Virus record (IMG/VR): IMGVR_UViG_3300009432_000046
Location: 1-21,190 of that record
Source: a virus
DNA: 21,190 bases
Strand: one strand, 5' to 3'
Numbering within the stretch: position 1 is the stretch's first letter; each line of letters starts with the position of its first letter. A program made the position numbers and the translations under genes. The notes below the pieces were generated by a model. That model was not told the origin of the DNA and did not search any database. It saw only the letters and a program-made list of their open reading frames with translations. Below are positions 330-17,093 of the stretch, one piece after another.

Positions 330-1948
330 TAGATTGTTACCTCTAGTTCACCATTAGAATTAATTGAGAAATCTTGGTCTGCGGCACTACCGTAATATTC
401 GATAGTGAGCATTCCTGTGCTGGGGTCCATGTGGAAGTTACCGAAAGCAAGTCCTAATGAAGTAGGTCCCATTGAACCTGTCGGTCCTTTAGAACCTGTC
501 GGTCCTAATGTGCCTTGGTTACCAACAGGTCCTTTGTTACCAAAGTCGCCTTGGATTCCTTGGGGACCTTTAGGGCCTAGGGGTCCTGTGGAACCTGTGG
601 GTCCTTGAGAACCAGTAGAGCCTCGTGGACCATCGTTACCTACTGGACCTTTAGAACCTGTGGAACCTGTCGAACCTTTAGAACCAGCAGGACCGACAGG
701 GCCTAATGGACCATCGTCACCTGTGGCTCCTTTAGCGCCTGTATCTCCTGTAGCTCCTGTAGGACCTTGGGAGCCTGTAGCTCCTGTAGGACCAGTGTTA
801 CCGAGAGGTCCTTGGCTACCTGTGTCACCTTTTTTTCCTGTAGGGCCTTGAGAACCTGTGGGACCTAGGGGTCCATCACCACCAACAGAGCCTTTTGGCC
901 CTGTACCACCAGTTGGTCCTTGTGTACCAGCATCGCCAGTTGGGCCGAGGGGGCCAGCATCACCTTTTGGACCTTGTACGCCTGTAGCTCCTGTGGGTCC
1001 CATGACCCCAGCGTTACCTTTTGGACCTAGTGGACCAGCCCCACCCTTGGGACCTTGTGAGCCAGTATTACCTGTGGAACCCAAAGGCCCTTCGTCACCA
1101 ACAACACCTTGCAGACCTTTAGGGCCAACGGGTCCTGCTGTACCACGGGGGCCTTGCAGACCAGTTATGCCTTGGTCGCCCATTGCACCCGTATTACCTA
1201 ACTCTCCTTGAATACCCCGTGGTCCTTCAGGGCCTATAACACCTTGAGGACCATTTGGGCCTTGAGGACCTGTGCTACCAGACAGCCCCGTTCCACCAGT
1301 TGGGCCTTGCGGTCCTTCAGATAGTGAGAAAGTTAGCTTTCCAGAGTTAGGGTCATACGCCACAGAACCCTCAGTTCCGTAGGGCAGTGAAGTCATATGA
1401 GTTGTTAATGAATAAAGCTCATCACGTATCTGAGTAACGTCACTGGCTTTGATGACGACAGTGTTGTGCTTTTCGAGTACGTCTTTATATTTTGCAGCAA
1501 CACCTACATCAATTTTGTCAACGTAAGCTTTCGTGGCTGCATCCTGTGCATTTACAGGGTCAGTTACGTTCTTAATAACTCGACCCTGTGCATTAAACTT
1601 ACCATCTGTTGCTTTGCCTATAGAAGCATTAGCAATGTCTAGGGCTTCCTGAGTCGCCTGAAAGACCTGAATGTTTGAGTTATCAAGGTCAGATTCAGTA
1701 AGAATAGCACCATTTCTAAAGTCTACTGCACGACTTGTAATAGACGTGGTACGCGCAAGACGCACAATGTCACCACGCGGGGGTGCGGGAGATAAAGAAA
1801 TGGTATTTTCCGATGTAAAAGTAAATGGTTTGGACGTACCACCTACAAAGACCTCAACATCTGCTTGCTGTGTGAAAGTAAACGGGATGGAGAAGGTAGT
1901 CGTACTACCATCTGAGGTGTATTCTATATAGCTAAAAGCCATTGTCAT
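329..1948 (-). CDS. Tail fibre protein with T7-type N-terminus and long collagen shaft
   Basis: Receptor-binding tail fibre of 539 residues. Residues 1 to about 115 match the T7 gp17 N-terminal domain that anchors the fibre to the tail (starting [19 protein letters not shown], with a later [12 protein letters not shown]-type segment). Residues 116-211 are a linker carrying an [12 protein letters not shown]-like segment typical of phage fibres. Residues 212-496 are 95 uninterrupted Gly-X-Y triplets, which should form a triple-helical shaft. The last 43 residues form a small cap ending [12 protein letters not shown]. No enzymatic domain is visible. An AGGAG lies 4 bases before the ATG at 1948 and 10 bases before a second in-frame ATG at 1942, so either may be the true start. 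The ATG at 1948 overlaps the upstream stop (TAATG). The following fibre gene overlaps its stop by one base. T7 gp17 itself has no collagen shaft, so the distal part has been replaced relative to T7. Confidence 0.93.
461..1315 (-). repeat. Collagen repeat, 95 Gly-X-Y triplets with a 9-triplet superperiod
   Basis: Codes residues 212-496 of the tail fibre. Proline is common at X, and Thr, Lys or Gln at Y, as in bacterial and phage collagens that lack hydroxyproline. Triplets 31, 40, 49, 67 and 76 all start an acidic or glycine triplet followed by GPL or GPR. That gives a spacing of 9 triplets (27 residues, 81 bases), or twice that. Confidence 0.92.
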
Positions 1949-4900
1949 TAATCTCCTAATTCTGCGGCAATAGCGTTTAAACCTGCCTTTGTATATGCCT
2001 GATTCACTATTGGAAGCATGTGTATAACTGATCTGTATTCTTGTTCTGTCATTTTCCCTTCAGAGAACATTCCGTGTGCCATGTGTCCTAGTCCGTCAAG
2101 ATAACCAGCTATAGGATTAGATACGAAGCCTGACCCAAAGCCTCTTTCGGCCTTATCATATACTTCAGCAGCCATGCCTATGACACCAAAAGCTCCCGTA
2201 TAACCAACTACGTTTTGAACTATACTTAATGGGTCTAAGTGTTTTTCTAGGTATTCTTTTTGATCTGAACGGCCTACTGAAGACATTTGTGTACGCGCAG
2301 TAGTCACAAGACCTGCTAAAAGCATTTGACCCATAACAACATAAGCAGCTTCAACACCCATACCGTTCAAAGCCCTTCGATTCATACGGGCAAACTGCTG
2401 CTCTTGAGAGGCCACCGCGAAGCTTAAAAACTGACCAATAGTAGAACCTATCTGTCCTCTTAAAACGCTGTTAGTAGCTCCTACGTCAGTCTCTTGTATG
2501 TTGTTACGAACCTCTATAGACACATGATTAGTAAAGGCATCTTGAGCCTCCACATCGTCCCATTTGTCATAGCCCATAACCCGCTTACCATCACCGTGTC
2601 TTTTGATCTGCACTTGGATTTGGTCGTACATAGCATCTGTGATACCTGTGTCCTGACGCATGGCTTTAGGTATGTCACCGTCTATCCATTTCTGACGCAT
2701 TACAGCAGCGTTAAACCTCTGAAGAAGGTCTGTCAATGGGGTAAGCCCTGAGATAACACCCTGAACTTGCCTAGCTTTTTGCCACCAAGGGTCCATGTGT
2801 TCAACCATGCCGCCAATCTCATCTATACGCGTTGATGACGAACCCGTTAAACCGTGAGTACCTAAGCCTGTAGCATCAAGAAGGTTCTGCATATCATTGT
2901 TAGATACTTCGCCATTACGTGCAGCCTTTAGCCAATCTTTATATTGTGGTGCAACTTTAAAGATAACCCCAAGACCTCCATAAGCAATGACGTTTGCAGT
3001 CTCAATGACGCTCATCATTCCAAAGTATCCTGAGTAGGCTAGGTAGGTTAAGTTACGGCCCATCTGTAAGCCTTTAGCCTTGTTCGCTTTTAAACCTAAA
3101 GACGTGTCCTCTATTAACTCAGAACCTTGAAGACCCTTAATAAGCTGGCGTATGATTTTAATATCATCTTTTGTTTTAAGAGGGTCTATACCGTTGTCTG
3201 CGCCCCATTTATCAATCTTTTTAATGGCATCTTCCATAGTGTCCATACCGTCACCGTCAATACCATTTCTGGCAAAACCAATGTGTCGGCCTGACTTAAA
3301 AGCATAGCTTTGAACTATGTCGGACATATTATTATTAAGCATTTCACTGATAGACATAGTTAAACCATCAACAGTAAATTTAGTTTCGTAGTCCATATCA
3401 AGACGTTGGCGCATGTTGGTATCAGGCACCCTAGAGTTGCCTTTACTACTGGACATTTTTGAAGCCATGCCTGAATCAATCTCAGCTTCAGTCATACCTT
3501 CGTCTACAAGAAACTTACGTAATGCTGTGCTGTCATCAAGTATGTCTTCTAGTCTGTTCGCTGTAACACCAGTGTCTAAAGAAGATACCTTTTGAATAAA
3601 CAAGCGACTAAGGCGCACAGAGAAAGCTAAATCCCACCCGTTTTTAGCAGCTATGGATTGACCAAAAATCTTACTGACTTTGGTTCCTCCATGTTCCTTT
3701 ACTACGGCCCGCAATCTAGCAGAGTCCCAATCGGTTGGAACGTAGTTGCGGTCATACTGTATTTCTTTAGCACCTATAACTCTGTAACGCTTTTTCTGAC
3801 TTAAAATGTCTTTGAATACTTCACGTGCGTTGTCTGCGGCTAACTGAATTTCTTTAGGAGAATCAGCATATACGGAGTCATTACGGACTGCCCTAGTCAC
3901 TAATCCTTCAAATTCTTCATGCGCCTTTATGCTAAGACGACCGTACTTAGTGGTTTGCCGCCATTTCTGGAAGTTCGGTCTGTGAACCCTCGCTAACTTA
4001 GCCCTAGCACTACGTGTAATACGTGTCTGAATACTTGAAGTAGATTGTATGTTCGTGCTGGACTTATTGTTTACCCTATTGTCTTGTACTAAGATTCGGC
4101 TTATGTTTCGTACAAGTGGGTTATCAGAACCACGTAAGGCAGCACCTTCAGATAGCAACTTGCTTATCCAGTTAGTGCCGATAATAGTTTTACCTTGTTC
4201 TGGTGCGTCAATTTCATCAATACGTTGGGGTGCGTGTATAGGCTGTGGGGCTTCTAAAGACATTTGAATATCAGGGTTGTTAAGATCACCTCCTGCTAAC
4301 ACAGTAGCGGCTTTTTCGTGTTCTCTTAAGTCATCTGCATGTTTTGCATATCTATGTACAAAGGAACCCATACCGCCTGCAAACCCTGCTGAAAAAGCAG
4401 TATCTACAAGCACATCATTTATTGTGTAATCAGGTAAAACATTACTGGCATAAAGACTCTCTAAGCCTCCTTGTGCGCCATACACTACTCCCATTTTACC
4501 TACTGTACGTATCCTAGTGGTGCCTGTGGTTGCTTTGCTCACGGCATTAGCTAAAGTGCCTATACCTTTACTCACGTTACCTAGTCCCTTAGCTCCTGAT
4601 AACCAACCGCCCGCGAGAGGTATTGCAGCCAGTGCTGCGTTTTCTTCGGTCAGCATACCAGCACCAAACATTGCCACTATTGTTAGAGCAGGGGAATCAC
4701 CAAAATTCTCAGCCATTATTTTCTGGTTGTTCTGAGTCTGCGTTACTTGCTCCATCATCTGCTTTAAAGACCCCTCTGATTCTGCTCCAAACATATAATC
4801 GTGGAACTGTTCAGGGGTGTCATCAAAGTAGGTTTTCATCACTCTGTCATCAAACCTAAACTCAGGGTCGTACTCATTATCTACAGCCATTTGACGTGCG

Positions 4901-5106
4901 GCTATTTCAACTAATGAAGCCCCTTCTTCTCTAAAGGCTCCAAAAGAGTCTGTGACCCCAAAGTCATCAGGTTTATCTATAAAGGCATTAACATTGGGGT
5001 CAAATACCTTACCGTTCTCTGTGGCTTGTCTCATAACCATTGAGGGGTCTTTAGGTGCCACTGAGTCTGAAGTAAAGACCGAAGTAAATTCTTCTGTTGT
5101 TTCCAT
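1948..5106 (-). CDS. Internal virion protein, T7 gp16-like
   Basis: Large protein of 1052 residues in the position of T7 gp16, between the gp15-like gene and the tail fibre. In T7, gp16 is packed in the head and ejected to form the channel through the cell envelope. Several stretches could insert in membrane: about residues 138-175 (Ala/Gly/Leu-rich), a hydrophobic stretch around 690-720, and residues 919-937 and 958-978 near the C-terminus. The rest is largely polar and predicted helical. T7 gp16 is about 1318 residues and starts with a lytic transglycosylase domain. Here the first 130 residues are acidic and show no ESxxxxxA/GLMQ-type transglycosylase motif, so peptidoglycan cleavage must come from elsewhere or be absent. 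The ATG at 5106 follows AAGGAATTTAAACA. The assignment rests on position, size and C-terminal character. Confidence 0.8.
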
Positions 5107-12352: not shown

Positions 12353-13111
12353 CTACAGGACGTTACTTCTTGATAATTTAGAAGCAACCTGCTGTCGGTA
12401 TGCAGAGTCAGTGCTGTACCTTGGGTCACGCATTGCTGCGGTCAGTTGGGCAGCAGAATCAAAGACCCCACCTGTTACGGATTTAGTCTCGCCCATGACG
12501 AGTGATGGTTCACTCCCGTTAACAGAACGGTACTGTGCTTGTAGACCCTGAATAGCTAGATTTGCTGATTCTATGTTTCCACTGTTTACTGCATTGTTAA
12601 AGGCATCAATGGATGCTTCATTTAAACTTTCAGAAGCCCAAGTAACCATATTTTCATACGCTTCTTGGCCTCCTACCTGTTCAAAGGCTTCTTGTTGCAT
12701 CTGTTCAGCCACCGCCATTTGACCATCTATAAATTGGTCAACCATAGAACGGGGAATACCAGCTTCTATTAAAGAATCGTAAGAAGCTTCAGTTAGTCCA
12801 CCTAGCTCTGCGAACTCTTGGGATAAGGAATCAAAATCAATACCTTCCTCTTCAAGCCCTTCAACTATGTTTTCTAACTCTTCTTCTTCTAACTCTTCTT
12901 CTTCTAACTCTTCTTCTTCGTCTTGAGAGCCTAGCTTCTGTTCTAGGGATTCATAAGCTTGCGCCATATCCTCAACACTGTTGAACTTCTCAGGTAGCCA
13001 TTCAGGGCGGTCGGACACATCAGGATTCTCAAGACCTTCGGCCTTTTCTAACATATCTAATGTGTGCTGACCGTCTTCAACGGTTTCTTCGTATGTGTTA
13101 ACTGTATCCAT
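12353..13111 (-). CDS. Capsid assembly scaffolding protein (T7 gp9-like)
   Basis: Scaffold protein of 252 residues that directs capsid assembly and is then released; T7 gp9 is 307. It is very acidic in its first half, with a (EEEEL) repeat near residues 64-79 and predicted helices throughout. Segments such as GRPEWLPEKF-like (DRPEWLPEKFNSVEDMAQAY) are typical of podovirus scaffolds, as is its place directly before the capsid gene. I chose the ATG at 13111 because GGAGA lies 9 bases upstream. The frame extends to an ATG at 13168, but that extension overlaps the end of the upstream gene and has no ribosome site. The C-terminal region is more basic (QQVASKLSRSNVL), as expected for the capsid-binding end. 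Confidence 0.9.
   Translation of the reverse strand: MDTVNTYEETVEDGQHTLDMLEKAEGLENPDVSDRPEWLPEKFNSVEDMAQAYESLEQKLGSQDEEEELEEEELEEEELENIVEGLEEEGIDFDSLSQEFAELGGLTEASYDSLIEAGIPRSMVDQFIDGQMAVAEQMQQEAFEQVGGQEAYENMVTWASESLNEASIDAFNNAVNSGNIESANLAIQGLQAQYRSVNGSEPSLVMGETKSVTGGVFDSAAQLTAAMRDPRYSTDSAYRQQVASKLSRSNVL
12874..12918 (-). repeat. Three perfect 15-base tandem repeats coding poly-glutamate
   Basis: The unit ctaactcttcttctt (plus strand) is repeated three times without change, coding EEEEL-type repeats in the scaffold protein. The perfect copies suggest recent slippage expansion. Confidence 0.93.
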
Positions 13112-13120
13112 TTTTAACTG

Positions 13121-13125
13121 TCTCC
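13121..13125 (-). promoter_or_regulatory. Ribosome binding site deciding the scaffold start
   Basis: GGAGA on the minus strand lies 9 bases before the ATG at 13111, supporting that start over the longer frame beginning at 13168. Confidence 0.75.
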
Positions 13126-13136
13126 AAACAGATAAT

Positions 13137-14468
13137 TTATTTAGTCTTTGTTGAGTAAGACTTACCATTGAATTTAAAGGTTTTTTTACCTTCTTCTTTA
13201 GCAGCCTTAAAAGCTGTCCCGAAAGACGTTGCTTTCTTACCTGTCTTAGCGTTTAAGTGTCCACGTAGGTCTTTACTACCTGACTTTTTAACGTCATCTT
13301 TAGTTGCCGTTGAGTAAGACTTACCATTCCAAGCAAACTTTGACTTACCAGCTTTCCTAGCTGTCCTAAATGCAGTGCCAAAAGAACTTGTTGTAGCTGC
13401 TGGCTTCTTAGTTTCTATTTCTTTAAAACCAGAAAATAACTTACCGCCTTTAGGTGGTGCGTCAGCAGAAGCGGCTAATTTCTCCACTGTTACAGCCGCC
13501 AGTAGAGGGCTTAACACCCTCCCAAACTTAGCAAACGTACTTAATTTAGAAGCGAGGGTACTGGCTTTACTACCTTTTATAACCGTCTTAGTAGAGCCAC
13601 CAATGCGTTCACCAGCAGGGCCGACAGTTGATGAGCCTTTAATAATTTTACGCTTAGGTGTCGCTGTCTTAGCTGTCGCTGTCTTATTGCCAGTACCAAA
13701 CTTAGGGCCACCAGTGCGCCTAACGTCAACTTTAGTCTTCGTAGGGGGCTTACCGCGAGAAGCGTTAACTTTCTTACGTCTGATCTTGGCATTAGTAGAA
13801 GGTTTTGATTCAGCACTTAATGTTTTAACTGTCGGCTTCTTAGCCTCTACCTTAGTAGCCTTAACTACGCTAGGTTTAACACGCGAGTCTTTAATAGACT
13901 GTAGTAGCTTGCCCTTAACACTGGTTGGTGTGACAGGCTTACTACGCGCACCCTTTCTTAAAGAAGGCTTCAGCTTCTTAGTAGCTACTTTAGGCTTGGG
14001 TTTGGGCTTAGTCCGACCATCCTTAAGAGAGCGTGTTAACGCTTTAGTCGCTTTAGGAGTCTCAGGTTTATTACGTAAAGATTTTAAGGACGTAGTTAGT
14101 TTGGAAGGTGCTTTTTTTTTAACTGTTGGCTTCTTAGCAGCTACCTTTTTGGTAGTAGGCTTTTTAGCTTCGGGCTTCTTAGCAGCTACCTTTTTGGTAG
14201 TAGGCTTTTTAGCTTCAGGCTTCTTAGCAGCTACCTTTTTAGTAGGTGGTTTACCCCTTGTGCTTTTGACCTTAACCTTAGCCTTAACCTCTTCTTTTGC
14301 TACGGTCTTACCTTTGCTATTAAACTTAGGTGTTTTCTGTTTTTTCTTAATATCTGCTAGTTGTTTTTCTAAAGCTGTAGCATCAATTTCGGCTTTCTTT
14401 TTTGAAGCAATTTCTGCTTCTATCTTAGCAATCAACTGTTCGTCTTCTGTACTAAATGCTAGTGCCAT
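13137..14468 (-). CDS. Lysine-rich histone H1-like repeat protein between portal and scaffold
   Basis: Protein of 443 residues with no counterpart at this place in T7. Residues 1-47 are a helical, charged N-terminus (coiled-coil like). Residues 76-119 carry a 15-residue repeat (TKKVAAKKPEAKKPT), the Ala-Lys-Pro composition of histone H1 tails. Residues 124-206 hold four 20-22-residue repeats of the type LxxS[LI][KR]xxRxKP. SRGKPPTK-like segments occur at 69-77 and 236-244. A short hydrophobic helix lies at about 310-335. The C-terminus has two copies of SFGTAF+xA+xxGKxxFxxNGKSYST (362-387 and 415-440). The start overlaps the portal stop (TAATG) and has an AAGGTGA site. The strong positive charge suggests binding to DNA or to the acidic scaffold protein encoded next. 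Function is not known to me; a DNA-condensing or minor virion protein is an inference. Confidence 0.85.
   Translation of the reverse strand: MALAFSTEDEQLIAKIEAEIASKKKAEIDATALEKQLADIKKKQKTPKFNSKGKTVAKEEVKAKVKVKSTRGKPPTKKVAAKKPEAKKPTTKKVAAKKPEAKKPTTKKVAAKKPTVKKKAPSKLTTSLKSLRNKPETPKATKALTRSLKDGRTKPKPKPKVATKKLKPSLRKGARSKPVTPTSVKGKLLQSIKDSRVKPSVVKATKVEAKKPTVKTLSAESKPSTNAKIRRKKVNASRGKPPTKTKVDVRRTGGPKFGTGNKTATAKTATPKRKIIKGSSTVGPAGERIGGSTKTVIKGSKASTLASKLSTFAKFGRVLSPLLAAVTVEKLAASADAPPKGGKLFSGFKEIETKKPAATTSSFGTAFRTARKAGKSKFAWNGKSYSTATKDDVKKSGSKDLRGHLNAKTGKKATSFGTAFKAAKEEGKKTFKFNGKSYSTKTK
13146..13385 (-). repeat. Two copies of a FGTAF...NGKSYST domain
   Basis: Residues 362-388 and 415-441 of the H1-like protein align over about 26 positions, with SFGTAF, GK, F and NGKSYST conserved. 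They are separated by a 26-residue linker. Confidence 0.9.
13851..14099 (-). repeat. Four degenerate 20-22-residue basic repeats
   Basis: Repeats begin at residues 124, 144, 166 and 188 of the H1-like protein. The consensus is L-x-x-S-[LI]-[KR], then two or three residues, then R-x-K-P. The DNA is diverged, so this is an older expansion than the 45-base repeat beside it. Confidence 0.75.
14112..14243 (-). repeat. 45-base tandem repeat coding TKKVAAKKPEAKKPT
   Basis: Two full copies plus a partial third (residues 76-90, 91-105 and 106-119). The copies are nearly identical at DNA level, indicating recent tandem duplication. Confidence 0.92.
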
Positions 14469-16015
14469 TACTGTTCACCTTGTCCTTGTTTCATCATGCC
14501 TTGGGCAATCGGGCCTGTAGCTTTCTCAGCCATAGAAGCCATTAGTTGCTGTTGCTGTTGCTGTCGCGCTTGCTTCTGTTCCTGAGCTTTCTGTTCTGGT
14601 GATTTCACCAAGCCAGTAGTATCAATTCCTAAAGACGCTCCAAGTCGATCAATGTAATCGTCTACGTTTAACTCACGTGCAAGCACTTCATTACCCAATG
14701 GGGCTAACATCTGAAGTAACTGAGAGAGTTTGTTAAGGTCTTGACCACGGCCTAAAGCTTCCATACCAGTAACGATCTGAGGCTTAAGGGTGTTGTCGGG
14801 GAACTTAGGCATCTTGCCGCTTTTCTCCATACGGGAGAGTAGTAGCTTAACTAAGGGGTATTGAAACTCTTGGGAAAGAATTGAATATACCCCACCTAAT
14901 GCTGCCTCAAGTTCTTGAGCCATATAGCGTACCTCTTCAGCAGTAACACGTTCAGCTTTACGCTGTACTGAGCTATTCATTAGGAATGAAAAGGCCAGCC
15001 GTTCAGTAATCTCACGTGCCGTATCCTGTGCTACTCGGAAGTCATTAAACTTCTGAAGTTGTAGTACAGATACATCGTTGGCATCACCTGCTGCTATACC
15101 ACCATTAGGTGTCTGAGCAATTACTTTTGCTTTAGTAGTACCATTTGGTCGTACCAGAAATAGAACCTTAGCGGCTGCGGCTGAACCTTCGACAATAGCC
15201 CTTGTTAGAGTCTCTAGTGAACTTAAGTCACCTATGAACTCTTCAACATAACCACGTCCATAAGATTCACCATCAATACGCACCATACGTAGTGACATAA
15301 AGGGTGTTTTATCTAGGGGGAACGAGCCGACAGAGTTAGGTATAACCTGACCCTCAACTTCTTGGTGTACTTCCCACTTCTTACTAATACGCTTAACGCT
15401 TGTGTAAAGGTCAACGGACTTGAGTTGTGAGTCGCCTGTTGGTTTGGTCAGTAAATCTTGGACTTCTTTAGGAAGCATAAGAGGACTAACGGTTTCTTTG
15501 GTAATAATCTCTAAGACATTACCCATCGCGTCACGTTGACATACGTAACGGTCTAAACGAAATACACGAACACCCCCATCTTTAGGCATGTGGACTAAAA
15601 CATTACCTGAAACGATAAGTTGCTTTAGAGCCTCAAACACTGGGACACGGATTGCTGTAGCTTCAACTTCTTGCATGGCAGCGCGTTCTATACGTGAGAG
15701 TGCTTCTTCTACTTTACCCCTAGCACCTTCTCCACCCGATAGACTTTGAAGGTCAAAGTCATCCATAGTCAAACGGAAGAAAGGAGCATTAGGTGGGAGT
15801 AAGGTCATTAATAACTTAGAACTTAGGTTATTAACACCACGCGCACCAATAGATTGAAATGGCGTAGAGTATGTAGATGAACCTGTATGACCTTCGGGGG
15901 GCATGAGAGTTGGTATGGTTAATACGGCTGCTTCTCTTGCCCTGCTTAAAAAAGGTGTACGGTCACTTTCGAGTTGTGTATATCGTTTAGCTACTGCTCC
16001 TGTGTTTGGTAGCAT
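14468..16015 (-). CDS. Portal (head-tail connector) protein, T7 gp8-like
   Basis: Portal protein of 515 residues (T7 gp8 is 536), forming the dodecameric ring at the head vertex through which DNA is packaged and released. Typical features are the N-terminal YTQLESDRTPFLSRAREAA segment, followed by TLMPPEG and FQSIGARGVNNLSSKLLMTL. There is also an RMVRIDGESYGRGYVEEF block and AERVTAEEVRYMAQELE toward the C-terminus. The tail of the protein is glutamine-rich, with a run of six Gln, as is common in this family. The gene follows two small basic proteins and is followed, by one-base overlap, by the H1-like gene; in T7 the scaffold follows directly. The start at 16015 has an AAGAGAA-type site. Identification is firm. 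Confidence 0.96.
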   Translation of the reverse strand: MLPNTGAVAKRYTQLESDRTPFLSRAREAAVLTIPTLMPPEGHTGSSTYSTPFQSIGARGVNNLSSKLLMTLLPPNAPFFRLTMDDFDLQSLSGGEGARGKVEEALSRIERAAMQEVEATAIRVPVFEALKQLIVSGNVLVHMPKDGGVRVFRLDRYVCQRDAMGNVLEIITKETVSPLMLPKEVQDLLTKPTGDSQLKSVDLYTSVKRISKKWEVHQEVEGQVIPNSVGSFPLDKTPFMSLRMVRIDGESYGRGYVEEFIGDLSSLETLTRAIVEGSAAAAKVLFLVRPNGTTKAKVIAQTPNGGIAAGDANDVSVLQLQKFNDFRVAQDTAREITERLAFSFLMNSSVQRKAERVTAEEVRYMAQELEAALGGVYSILSQEFQYPLVKLLLSRMEKSGKMPKFPDNTLKPQIVTGMEALGRGQDLNKLSQLLQMLAPLGNEVLARELNVDDYIDRLGASLGIDTTGLVKSPEQKAQEQKQARQQQQQQLMASMAEKATGPIAQGMMKQGQGEQ

Positions 16016-16034: not shown

Positions 16035-16862
16035 TTATGTAATAATATTTAAGCCGCTAAAACCGCCGCCACTAACAGCAACACCACGGTTTTTATTACG
16101 TGTGCTACGTTTACCTTCACGTTGCTTATTCTTTTTAACAGCCAAAAGATTCTTAAGGTTATCTGGTTGGTTAGTTGCTAACGCTGGGCCGCTACTTCCA
16201 TTAGATGCAGTTGATTGGTTAGAACCTTTAGCTTTTGGTATAGCAAGTTTTGCAGTCTTAGATTCAGCCTTAAAGTTAGCCATAGGTTCTACATTGGAAC
16301 CTTTAGCATGATCAGAGTAGACCTTCTTAAAGTCTGTGGTTTTGAAAGGGCTAGTGCTATCTTTTCGGTAGTTACCTCCACCTGACTTATGAACCTCACG
16401 GCCTTTTTTATTAGCTGCAATTTGTTCACCTTGTACATCACGGCCTTGCTTCTTAGAGCCAAACTCTAATAAGCTTTCTACAGGCTTGTGTACCTCTCCT
16501 GTAGAAATTGACTTATAGATTCCAGTAAAGCTTGTATCTTTATCTAAAGAATCTGACTGTCGCCTTGAGAGTTCTTTAAGACCTTTAGAACCCGACTTAC
16601 CTTCTTTAGCTAGCTTAACTAGCGCAGGGTTAGTCTTAGAGTTTGTAACACCTTTAATAGCATTACCGCTAGAGTCTGTAATATTAGACCTAGCTACGCC
16701 AATGCCCTTGGCTTCCTGCTTTGCTGTGAACTTAGCACCCGCCACTTTGTTCTTATTAATAGACTCTTTTGTTGGTATAAAAATGTCTTTTAAAGTTTTT
16801 TTCTTAGATGGTTTATCATTGCCTCCCCCCGTAGAAGGTTTACTAGCAGTTGCATCACACAT
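16035..16862 (-). CDS. Basic low-complexity protein, likely T7 gp7.3-related virion protein
   Basis: Protein of 275 residues, rich in Lys, Ser, Gly and Asn, with no membrane segment and probably largely disordered. It starts MCDA, like the gp14-like protein. The C-terminus has GKRSTRNK (250-257) followed by VSGGGFSGLNI. This resembles the recalled C-terminus of T7 gp7.3 (GGKKSLSVARSSGGGINI), a tail protein that is ejected into the outer membrane. It sits directly before the portal gene, as gp7.3 does in T7, but is much longer than gp7.3 (99 residues). The ATG overlaps no other gene and follows GGAGGTGGCTAG, one of the best ribosome sites in the window. The link to gp7.3 is inference from motif and position. 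Confidence 0.7.
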   Translation of the reverse strand: MCDATASKPSTGGGNDKPSKKKTLKDIFIPTKESINKNKVAGAKFTAKQEAKGIGVARSNITDSSGNAIKGVTNSKTNPALVKLAKEGKSGSKGLKELSRRQSDSLDKDTSFTGIYKSISTGEVHKPVESLLEFGSKKQGRDVQGEQIAANKKGREVHKSGGGNYRKDSTSPFKTTDFKKVYSDHAKGSNVEPMANFKAESKTAKLAIPKAKGSNQSTASNGSSGPALATNQPDNLKNLLAVKKNKQREGKRSTRNKNRGVAVSGGGFSGLNIIT

Positions 16863-17093
16863 CTAGCCACCTCCCTTTTTACTGTTGGGTATGCTTAAAC
16901 TAGCCGAACCTGAGCCACCCATGTTTAAGCCTGTGGTGGGTACTTTGTTACGAACGCTACGCTTACCTTTAGACTTACGCTTACGCGCTGCTGAAGGTGT
17001 TTGCTCCATATCTGAAAAATCTAAACTAGCGGGAGCTTTAGCAGGGGCAGGTGCCTTTGTTGCAGGTTTAGGTGAACTACCGAATAAACACAT
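16863..17093 (-). CDS. Small basic Met-Cys protein, T7 gp6.7/gp7.3-like
   Basis: Protein of 76 residues. It starts MCLFGSSPKP, similar in kind to the recalled T7 gp6.7 start (MCFSPK). It then has an Ala-Pro-Lys stretch (11-22), an acidic patch (DFSDMEQ, 25-31) and a basic C-terminal motif, KGKRSVRNK (42-50), followed by GLNMGGSGSASLSI. The same GKRSxRNK...GLN pattern ends the next protein, so the two appear related. T7 gp6.7 is a small virion protein released with the DNA. The stop codon lies directly against the ATG of the 275-residue gene, which also uses this gene's 3' end (GGAGGT) as its ribosome site. Assignment is by motif and location and is moderately sure. Confidence 0.68.
   Translation of the reverse strand: MCLFGSSPKPATKAPAPAKAPASLDFSDMEQTPSAARKRKSKGKRSVRNKVPTTGLNMGGSGSASLSIPNSKKGGG

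Follow-up and report, generated by a model that had tools for sequence, protein, structure and literature searches.

A polycationic accessory protein encoded between the portal and scaffold genes in a clade of T7-like phages

Two minor virion proteins of phage T7, gp7.3 and gp6.7, are encoded immediately upstream of the portal gene. In gp7.3, an N-terminus that is positively charged and not resolved lies around the DNA in the portal-tail channel, and the resolved C-terminus is at the adaptor-nozzle junction; gp6.7 is small, belongs to the core, and is ejected (PMC11784390). The cargo protein C1 (gp45) of PhicrAss001 is stored in the head and tail and is portal-bound (PMC10172136). How podophages load proteins other than capsid proteins into the head is poorly understood.

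We analyzed a virus record of 21,190 bases (IMGVR_UViG_3300009432_000046; "the window" is this entire stretch). Read on the minus strand, the window has a T7-like gene order: class II ribonucleotide reductase, b76, b275, portal, a gene that we call HL, scaffold, major capsid, tail tube proteins, gp14-, gp15- and gp16-like genes, and a collagen-like fibre gene (the gp15-like and fibre labels are based on position and sequence only). Coordinates written with two dots are on the minus strand. HL is genuine and under selection: it is an accessory, polycationic protein found in a marine T7-like clade, and not a histone.

HL resembles gp7.3 and gp6.7 in its neck-gene location and low complexity, and it shares with gp7.3 (PMC11784390) a basic chain joined to a structured end, which for HL is predicted. 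It differs from both in that its gene is downstream of the portal, it is 4-5 times larger, and it has two alpha-beta-beta modules. We considered HL as a relative of gp7.3 and rejected this because the gp7.3-like C-terminal tail (GKRxxR...GLNI) is on two other basic proteins, b76 (16863..17093) and b275 (16035..16862). HL ends in NGKSYSTKTK and has no such tail. A tail like that of b76 and b275 also occurs in T7 gp7.3 and its equivalents. The b275 homologue in L042 is acidic (pI 4.9) and retains the tail, and b275 homologues with a Lys-rich expansion occur in L010, L030, and L036, with or without HL.

The Rhizobium Paadamvirus genomes contain an ORF (RHEph01 gp034, 166 aa, with equivalents in RHEph21 and TRX32-1) that, like HL, occupies the portal-scaffold slot, is basic, and carries the module (tblastn against HL, E 7e-4; module profile, E about 1e-14). 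It differs from HL in having an N-terminal module, another tail, no Lys-Ala-Pro array, and a weakly acidic scaffold linker. The initial annotation knew of no standard function at this position. That is correct for T7, where the portal-scaffold gap is 99 bp and contains a promoter, but Paadamvirus has a module-bearing protein in the slot.

In the crAss-like Jahgtovirus cr107_1, the module (E 4e-18) is present in gp_13165, whose gene is in the slot of cargo protein C1, a synteny judged from weak similarity. This protein has no overall sequence similarity to HL. The module is absent from PhicrAss001 gp45 itself (whole-sequence E 0.33 against the module profile). Homologues of the SoxAX-binding protein (SAXB, NF052674) from Marinobacterium and Neptuniibacter have one module just after an apparent signal peptide; these are bacterial extracytoplasmic proteins of about 140 aa that have nothing but the module in common with HL, and HL has no match to NF052674.

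The HL gene and its protein

HL is a complete ORF (13137..14468) that encodes a 443 aa polycationic protein; the portal stop and the HL start codon share the overlap TAATG. The protein contains 104 K, 18 R, 10 D, and 19 E, with a pI of 10.8 and a net charge of about +93; K makes up 23% of the whole, A 12%, and P 6-7%. It is preceded by a T7 gp8-type portal gene (14468..16015; PF12236, E 8e-91; phrog_449) and followed by a T7 gp9-type scaffold gene (12353..13111; PF05396, E 3e-17; phrog_1052). The scaffold ORF opens at 13168, and its likely start, MDTVNTY, is further in and is kept in relatives. HL has no match to the PF05396 and phrog_1052 scaffold models; the next gene matches both. The 25-base spacer after the HL stop (13112..13136) carries the scaffold ribosome-binding site, ggagacag, and abuts the portal stop in relatives without HL. 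The initial annotation had placed a basic 443-residue ORF with three repeat families between portal and scaffold, within a T7-like gene order and directly ahead of an acidic scaffold gene; all of this is seen on the minus strand, and the acidic run DEEEELEEEELEEEELE is present in the scaffold.

The HL frame is open in 21 full-length relatives and pN/pS is 0.28 in the first C-terminal module (0.63 in the basic middle of HL); HL is thus a selected protein, not a frame that is open by chance. A plus strand frame (13375-14520, 381 aa) overlaps HL. We considered and rejected a chance antisense ORF, because that frame is open for the reason that lysine codons in reverse give no stops.

HL contains 17 repeated 8-mers, compared to a mean of 0.00 in composition shuffles, and TRF identifies a tandem 45-bp unit at 14128-14245 (97% matches). 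The Lys-Ala-Pro repeats (residues 77-114; 14127..14240) have a 15-aa (45-bp) unit of the KKPEAKKPTTKKVAA type, and their copy number varies among relatives. A second family, S(L/I)K..R.KP, covers residues 127-199 (13872..14090), and a third, SFGTAF...NGKSYST, is at residues 362-387 and 415-440. AlphaFold2 (AF2) predicts a long N-terminal helix (residues 7-43; 14340..14450; pLDDT about 80-88) that is kept in relatives except L037. A polycationic region with net charge +65 (residues 58-283; 13620..14297) is predicted to be disordered, based on composition and a pLDDT mostly <50. The VGPAGERIGG block that follows (residues 282-291; 13596..13625) is conserved in the alignment of relatives, with G283, P284, A285, G286, and R288 invariant in A4. 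There is also a low-confidence, weakly hydrophobic predicted helix (residues 315-333; 13470..13526), with a 19-residue hydropathy of 0.36-1.74 across relatives.

HL had been annotated as histone H1-like. This holds for composition over about 70 residues: the H1-like composition is confined to residues 60-130, with K at 37%, A at 14%, and P at 11%, and here HL shares Lys-Ala-Pro-rich low complexity with H1 C-terminal tails and bacterial H1-like proteins. It differs from these in having no globular H1 domain and a lower overall content of K, A, and P, and its ordered parts are unrelated. A globular winged-helix H1 domain is not seen in the AF2 model. HL has zero matches in each of Pfam (E ≤ 1), PHROG, NCBIfam, and PDB chains. 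The repeats are not conserved, being nearly absent in L016-L020 and L037. With no family match, no H1 domain, and no conservation of the repeats, we reject H1 homology; the likeness is compositional. We found no description of H1-like phage virion proteins in a literature search.

Relatives and the acidic scaffold linker

We surveyed the portal-scaffold gap in portal-anchored loci from viral contigs. An HL homologue is present in 27 surveyed loci, in 21 of them at full length (253-565 aa). In the alignment of these relatives, the Lys-Ala-Pro repeats are expanded in L009 and nearly gone in the six loci named above. Conserved across relatives are the positive charge, the N-terminal helix, the VGPAGERIGG block, and one or two C-terminal modules. 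The full-length copies are always basic, with net charges of +48 to +135.

Eight loci (L029-L036) have portals 84-85% identical to that of the window and a scaffold gene 26-34 bp after the portal. In L038, whose portal is 83% identical to that of the window, the scaffold likewise follows the portal within this 26-34 bp range, with no HL. In more distant relatives the gap is empty (as in L084, L085, L088, and L089) or contains unrelated ORFs. The HL gene is a clean cassette: the spacer after the HL stop in carriers is the same as the spacer after the portal stop in non-carriers. On the portal tree, HL presence needs two changes, which we read as one gain and one loss. Since the loss is in a clade of apparently viable phages, HL is not essential.

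One unrelated ORF family (MSELMDATISYL... or MATALQTATIAY..., 54-225 aa) fills the portal-scaffold gap in more distant relatives (L044, L046, L054, L057, L058, L060, L061, L068, L072, L073, L075, L077, and L078). The gap looks like an insertion hotspot.

The scaffold contains an acidic linker (12845..12934), LGSQDEEEELEEEELEEEELENIVEGLEEE, with 18 acidic and 0 basic residues. Mean scaffold charge per 100 aa is -17.6 in carriers of HL compared to -11.1 in non-carriers, and this difference is confined to the one linker. As delimited after the alignment was seen, the linker separates the two groups without overlap: its net acidity is 14-20 in 19 loci with HL and 2-11 in every other locus. A phylogenetic regression (lambda 1, full Brownian motion) gives t 3.35 and p 0.0018, for an association that derives from about two events because HL state changed only twice on the tree. 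In the nested clade that lost HL, the linker is both shorter and less acidic than in the sister L037, which carries HL. The charge of portal, capsid, b76, and b275 shifts less than that of the scaffold linker (capsid numbers are small). HL charge and linker acidity are not significantly correlated within carriers (Spearman 0.33, p 0.17), and the linker is weakly acidic (net 3) in the Paadamvirus carriers. These sequence comparisons make a functional tie between HL and the scaffold probable. The comparison of linker acidity in carriers and non-carriers lends independent support to the earlier suggestion that HL balances the acidic scaffold.

The presence or absence of a natural HL cassette beside the scaffold gene, with matching scaffold acidity, makes the question of head loading testable in close relatives.

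The C-terminal alpha-beta-beta module

The third repeat family corresponds to two copies of a module, at residues 361-387 (13308..13388) and 414-440 (13149..13229). The module consists of a helix and a beta-hairpin, with the consensus SFxxAFxxARxxGxxxFxWNGKxYxT and invariant F, G, F, GK, Y, and T. Both HL copies match the module profile, which was built with the window's own copies (i-Evalues 4e-14 and 7e-11), and AF2 predicts a helix and two strands in each (pLDDT about 87-89 and about 78-90). In the model of the entire protein the helix-strand-strand elements are at 363-386 and 416-439, with pLDDT mostly 87-90, and a separate AF2 run on an alignment of 80 module sequences gave the same fold. 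The Paadamvirus and csAssE-Sib proteins were found by tblastn from HL alone, and in tblastn of whole HL in annotated phages only the C-terminal module was matched. The initial annotation had listed this C-terminal repeat, which is present, but had not recognized it as a conserved small fold.

A degenerate DNA search of viral contigs for the 10-residue module core found at least 80 loci. Among the matches listed, the helix signature is upstream of the core in 77 of 80 loci, compared to 2.9 in shuffled flanks. The module is N-terminal in 19 of the matches listed, C-terminal in 29, and internal in 30, in proteins that are otherwise unrelated. These proteins have almost no family matches among the matches listed, and 54 of the 63 shorter than 700 aa have a pI above 9. 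The genes beside module genes encode, among others, T7-type portals, terminases, and major capsid proteins. In the HL clade, Paadamvirus, L160, and L111, a module-bearing ORF comes directly after a T7-type portal. Two microviruses have the module fused to an M15 peptidase, and it is also fused to a SleB-type hydrolase and, in a crAss-like protein, to Phage_lysozyme2. CRP-13 gp63, a Lys/Ala-rich protein encoded near an endolysin gene, carries it as well.

In 84,980 bacterial and archaeal genomes the module is at 17 loci only. One (L226) is a member of the HL gene family in a MAG contig and one (L228) is Paadamvirus-like; most of the others appear to be secreted or membrane-anchored, as judged by eye, and two match the SoxAX-binding protein (NF052674). 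The module was not found in the records (25-37 kb, possibly fragments) of six relatives without HL.

Profile and fold searches of the module against the PDB gave nothing significant. A fold search in BFVD returned only unnamed or uncharacterized proteins, including the module carrier of MedDCM-OCT-S28-C3. A literature search for the motif found no description, and within the libraries searched we therefore regard the module, which is widespread, as apparently undescribed. It groups many "hypothetical" genes that adjoin portal, terminase, and capsid genes as one set and is a common handle on proteins of marine, freshwater, rhizobial, gut, and single-stranded DNA phages. For HL, the module fold is the best handle on function.

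In the 201-kb Pseudomonas phage vB_PpuM-KoPa-5 (L219), a 46-aa ORF at 4956-5096, within a non-structural region, encodes little beyond the module. A second recurrent tail, about SASRRADGIAQRGKTKGR, is at or near the end of many module proteins (L093, L095, L097, L100, L105, L109, L137, L156, L157, and L164) and may be another tag.

Possible roles of HL, and other genes of the window

We tentatively suggest, by analogy with T7, that HL may be an accessory virion protein of the portal and ejection (neck) apparatus in this T7-like clade, with a probability of roughly 0.42. The gene slot, the place of the cr107_1 carrier in the C1 slot, the coupling to the scaffold, the T7 precedent, the conservation of charge though the repeats vary, and the module pN/pS of 0.28 argue for a virion role. 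The acidic linker could bind and shield the HL polycation, and through this binding HL would be carried into the prohead together with the scaffold. On scaffold exit and DNA entry the polycation would shift to DNA near the portal, as compared with T7 gp7.3, and the modules may dock HL to the portal or core, or to the host envelope after ejection. DNA contact or ejection of HL is plausible by analogy with gp7.3 and gp6.7 (PMC11784390). Several observations argue against a virion role. HL was lost in an apparently viable clade, the scaffold association comes from about two events and from a linker delimited after the alignment was seen, and there is no significant correlation within carriers. 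For some module proteins a place in the virion is not obvious (the 46-aa ORF of the 201-kb phage and the extracytoplasmic bacterial proteins), PhicrAss001 gp45 lacks the module, and the cr107_1 synteny comes from weak similarity. A broader proposal joins two parts and is doubtful as a whole: the co-evolving polyacidic scaffold linker and polycationic cargo would represent charge-paired head loading, and the alpha-beta-beta mini-domain of dsDNA and ssDNA phages and extracytoplasmic bacterial proteins, widespread and undescribed, would be a tag by which virion and envelope proteins dock.

HL might act in assembly only: it would pair with the acidic scaffold as a co-scaffold or counter-ion, help to form or clear the prohead, and not be kept in the virion. 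This would fit the occurrence of HL with the acidic linker, the location of its gene between portal and scaffold with a start overlapping the portal stop, and its dispensability where the linker is less acidic. We consider it unlikely, given that the module also occurs in wall hydrolases and extracytoplasmic bacterial proteins, which have no link to a scaffold, so that scaffold pairing fails to explain the most conserved part of HL, and that the Paadamvirus carriers have weakly acidic linkers (net 3). In another reading, HL would be a polycationic protein active on the envelope at lysis or entry, with modules that bind the cell wall or a different envelope component. The fusions to M15 peptidase, SleB-type hydrolase, and Phage_lysozyme2, the bacterial proteins that appear to have a signal peptide or a membrane anchor (the SoxAX-binding protein homologues among them), and the module protein CRP-13 gp63 near an endolysin gene are in its favor, and because of this association with hydrolases and the bacterial envelope we retain a lysis or envelope role at a low probability. 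However, we see neither an apparent signal peptide nor a clear transmembrane segment in HL (the 19-residue hydropathy of the window copy peaks at 1.18), its gene is within the head-gene block and not by lysis genes, and the scaffold association is left unexplained.

The initial annotation had proposed that HL could condense DNA, and an intracellular histone-like protein that condenses host or phage DNA or disturbs transcription in late infection would agree with the Lys, Ala, and Pro content of residues 60-130 and with the positive charge kept in all relatives. We find this improbable: there is no H1 domain or family match, the H1-like repeats are not conserved, and such a role would account for neither the C-terminal modules nor the association with the scaffold. 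The wide variation in repeat number and HL length (253-565 aa) and the clean loss of the gene could also indicate a low-complexity passenger, a neutral or selfish insertion with a composition that arose by repeat slippage. This is very unlikely, as the module pN/pS is 0.28, the frame is kept in 21 full-length relatives, the motif residues are invariant, and the charge is always conserved.

The N-terminal part of T7 gp16 contains the wall-degrading domain. The gp16-like protein of the window (1948-5106) aligns to positions 215-1225 of phrog_342, and the N-terminal part of the profile is missing. In the searched records of HL-lacking members of the HL clade, gp16 was not found. Collagen-like Gly-X-Y repeats occur at 3-1948 of the window, in a 539-aa fibre-like protein and an adjoining truncated ORF.
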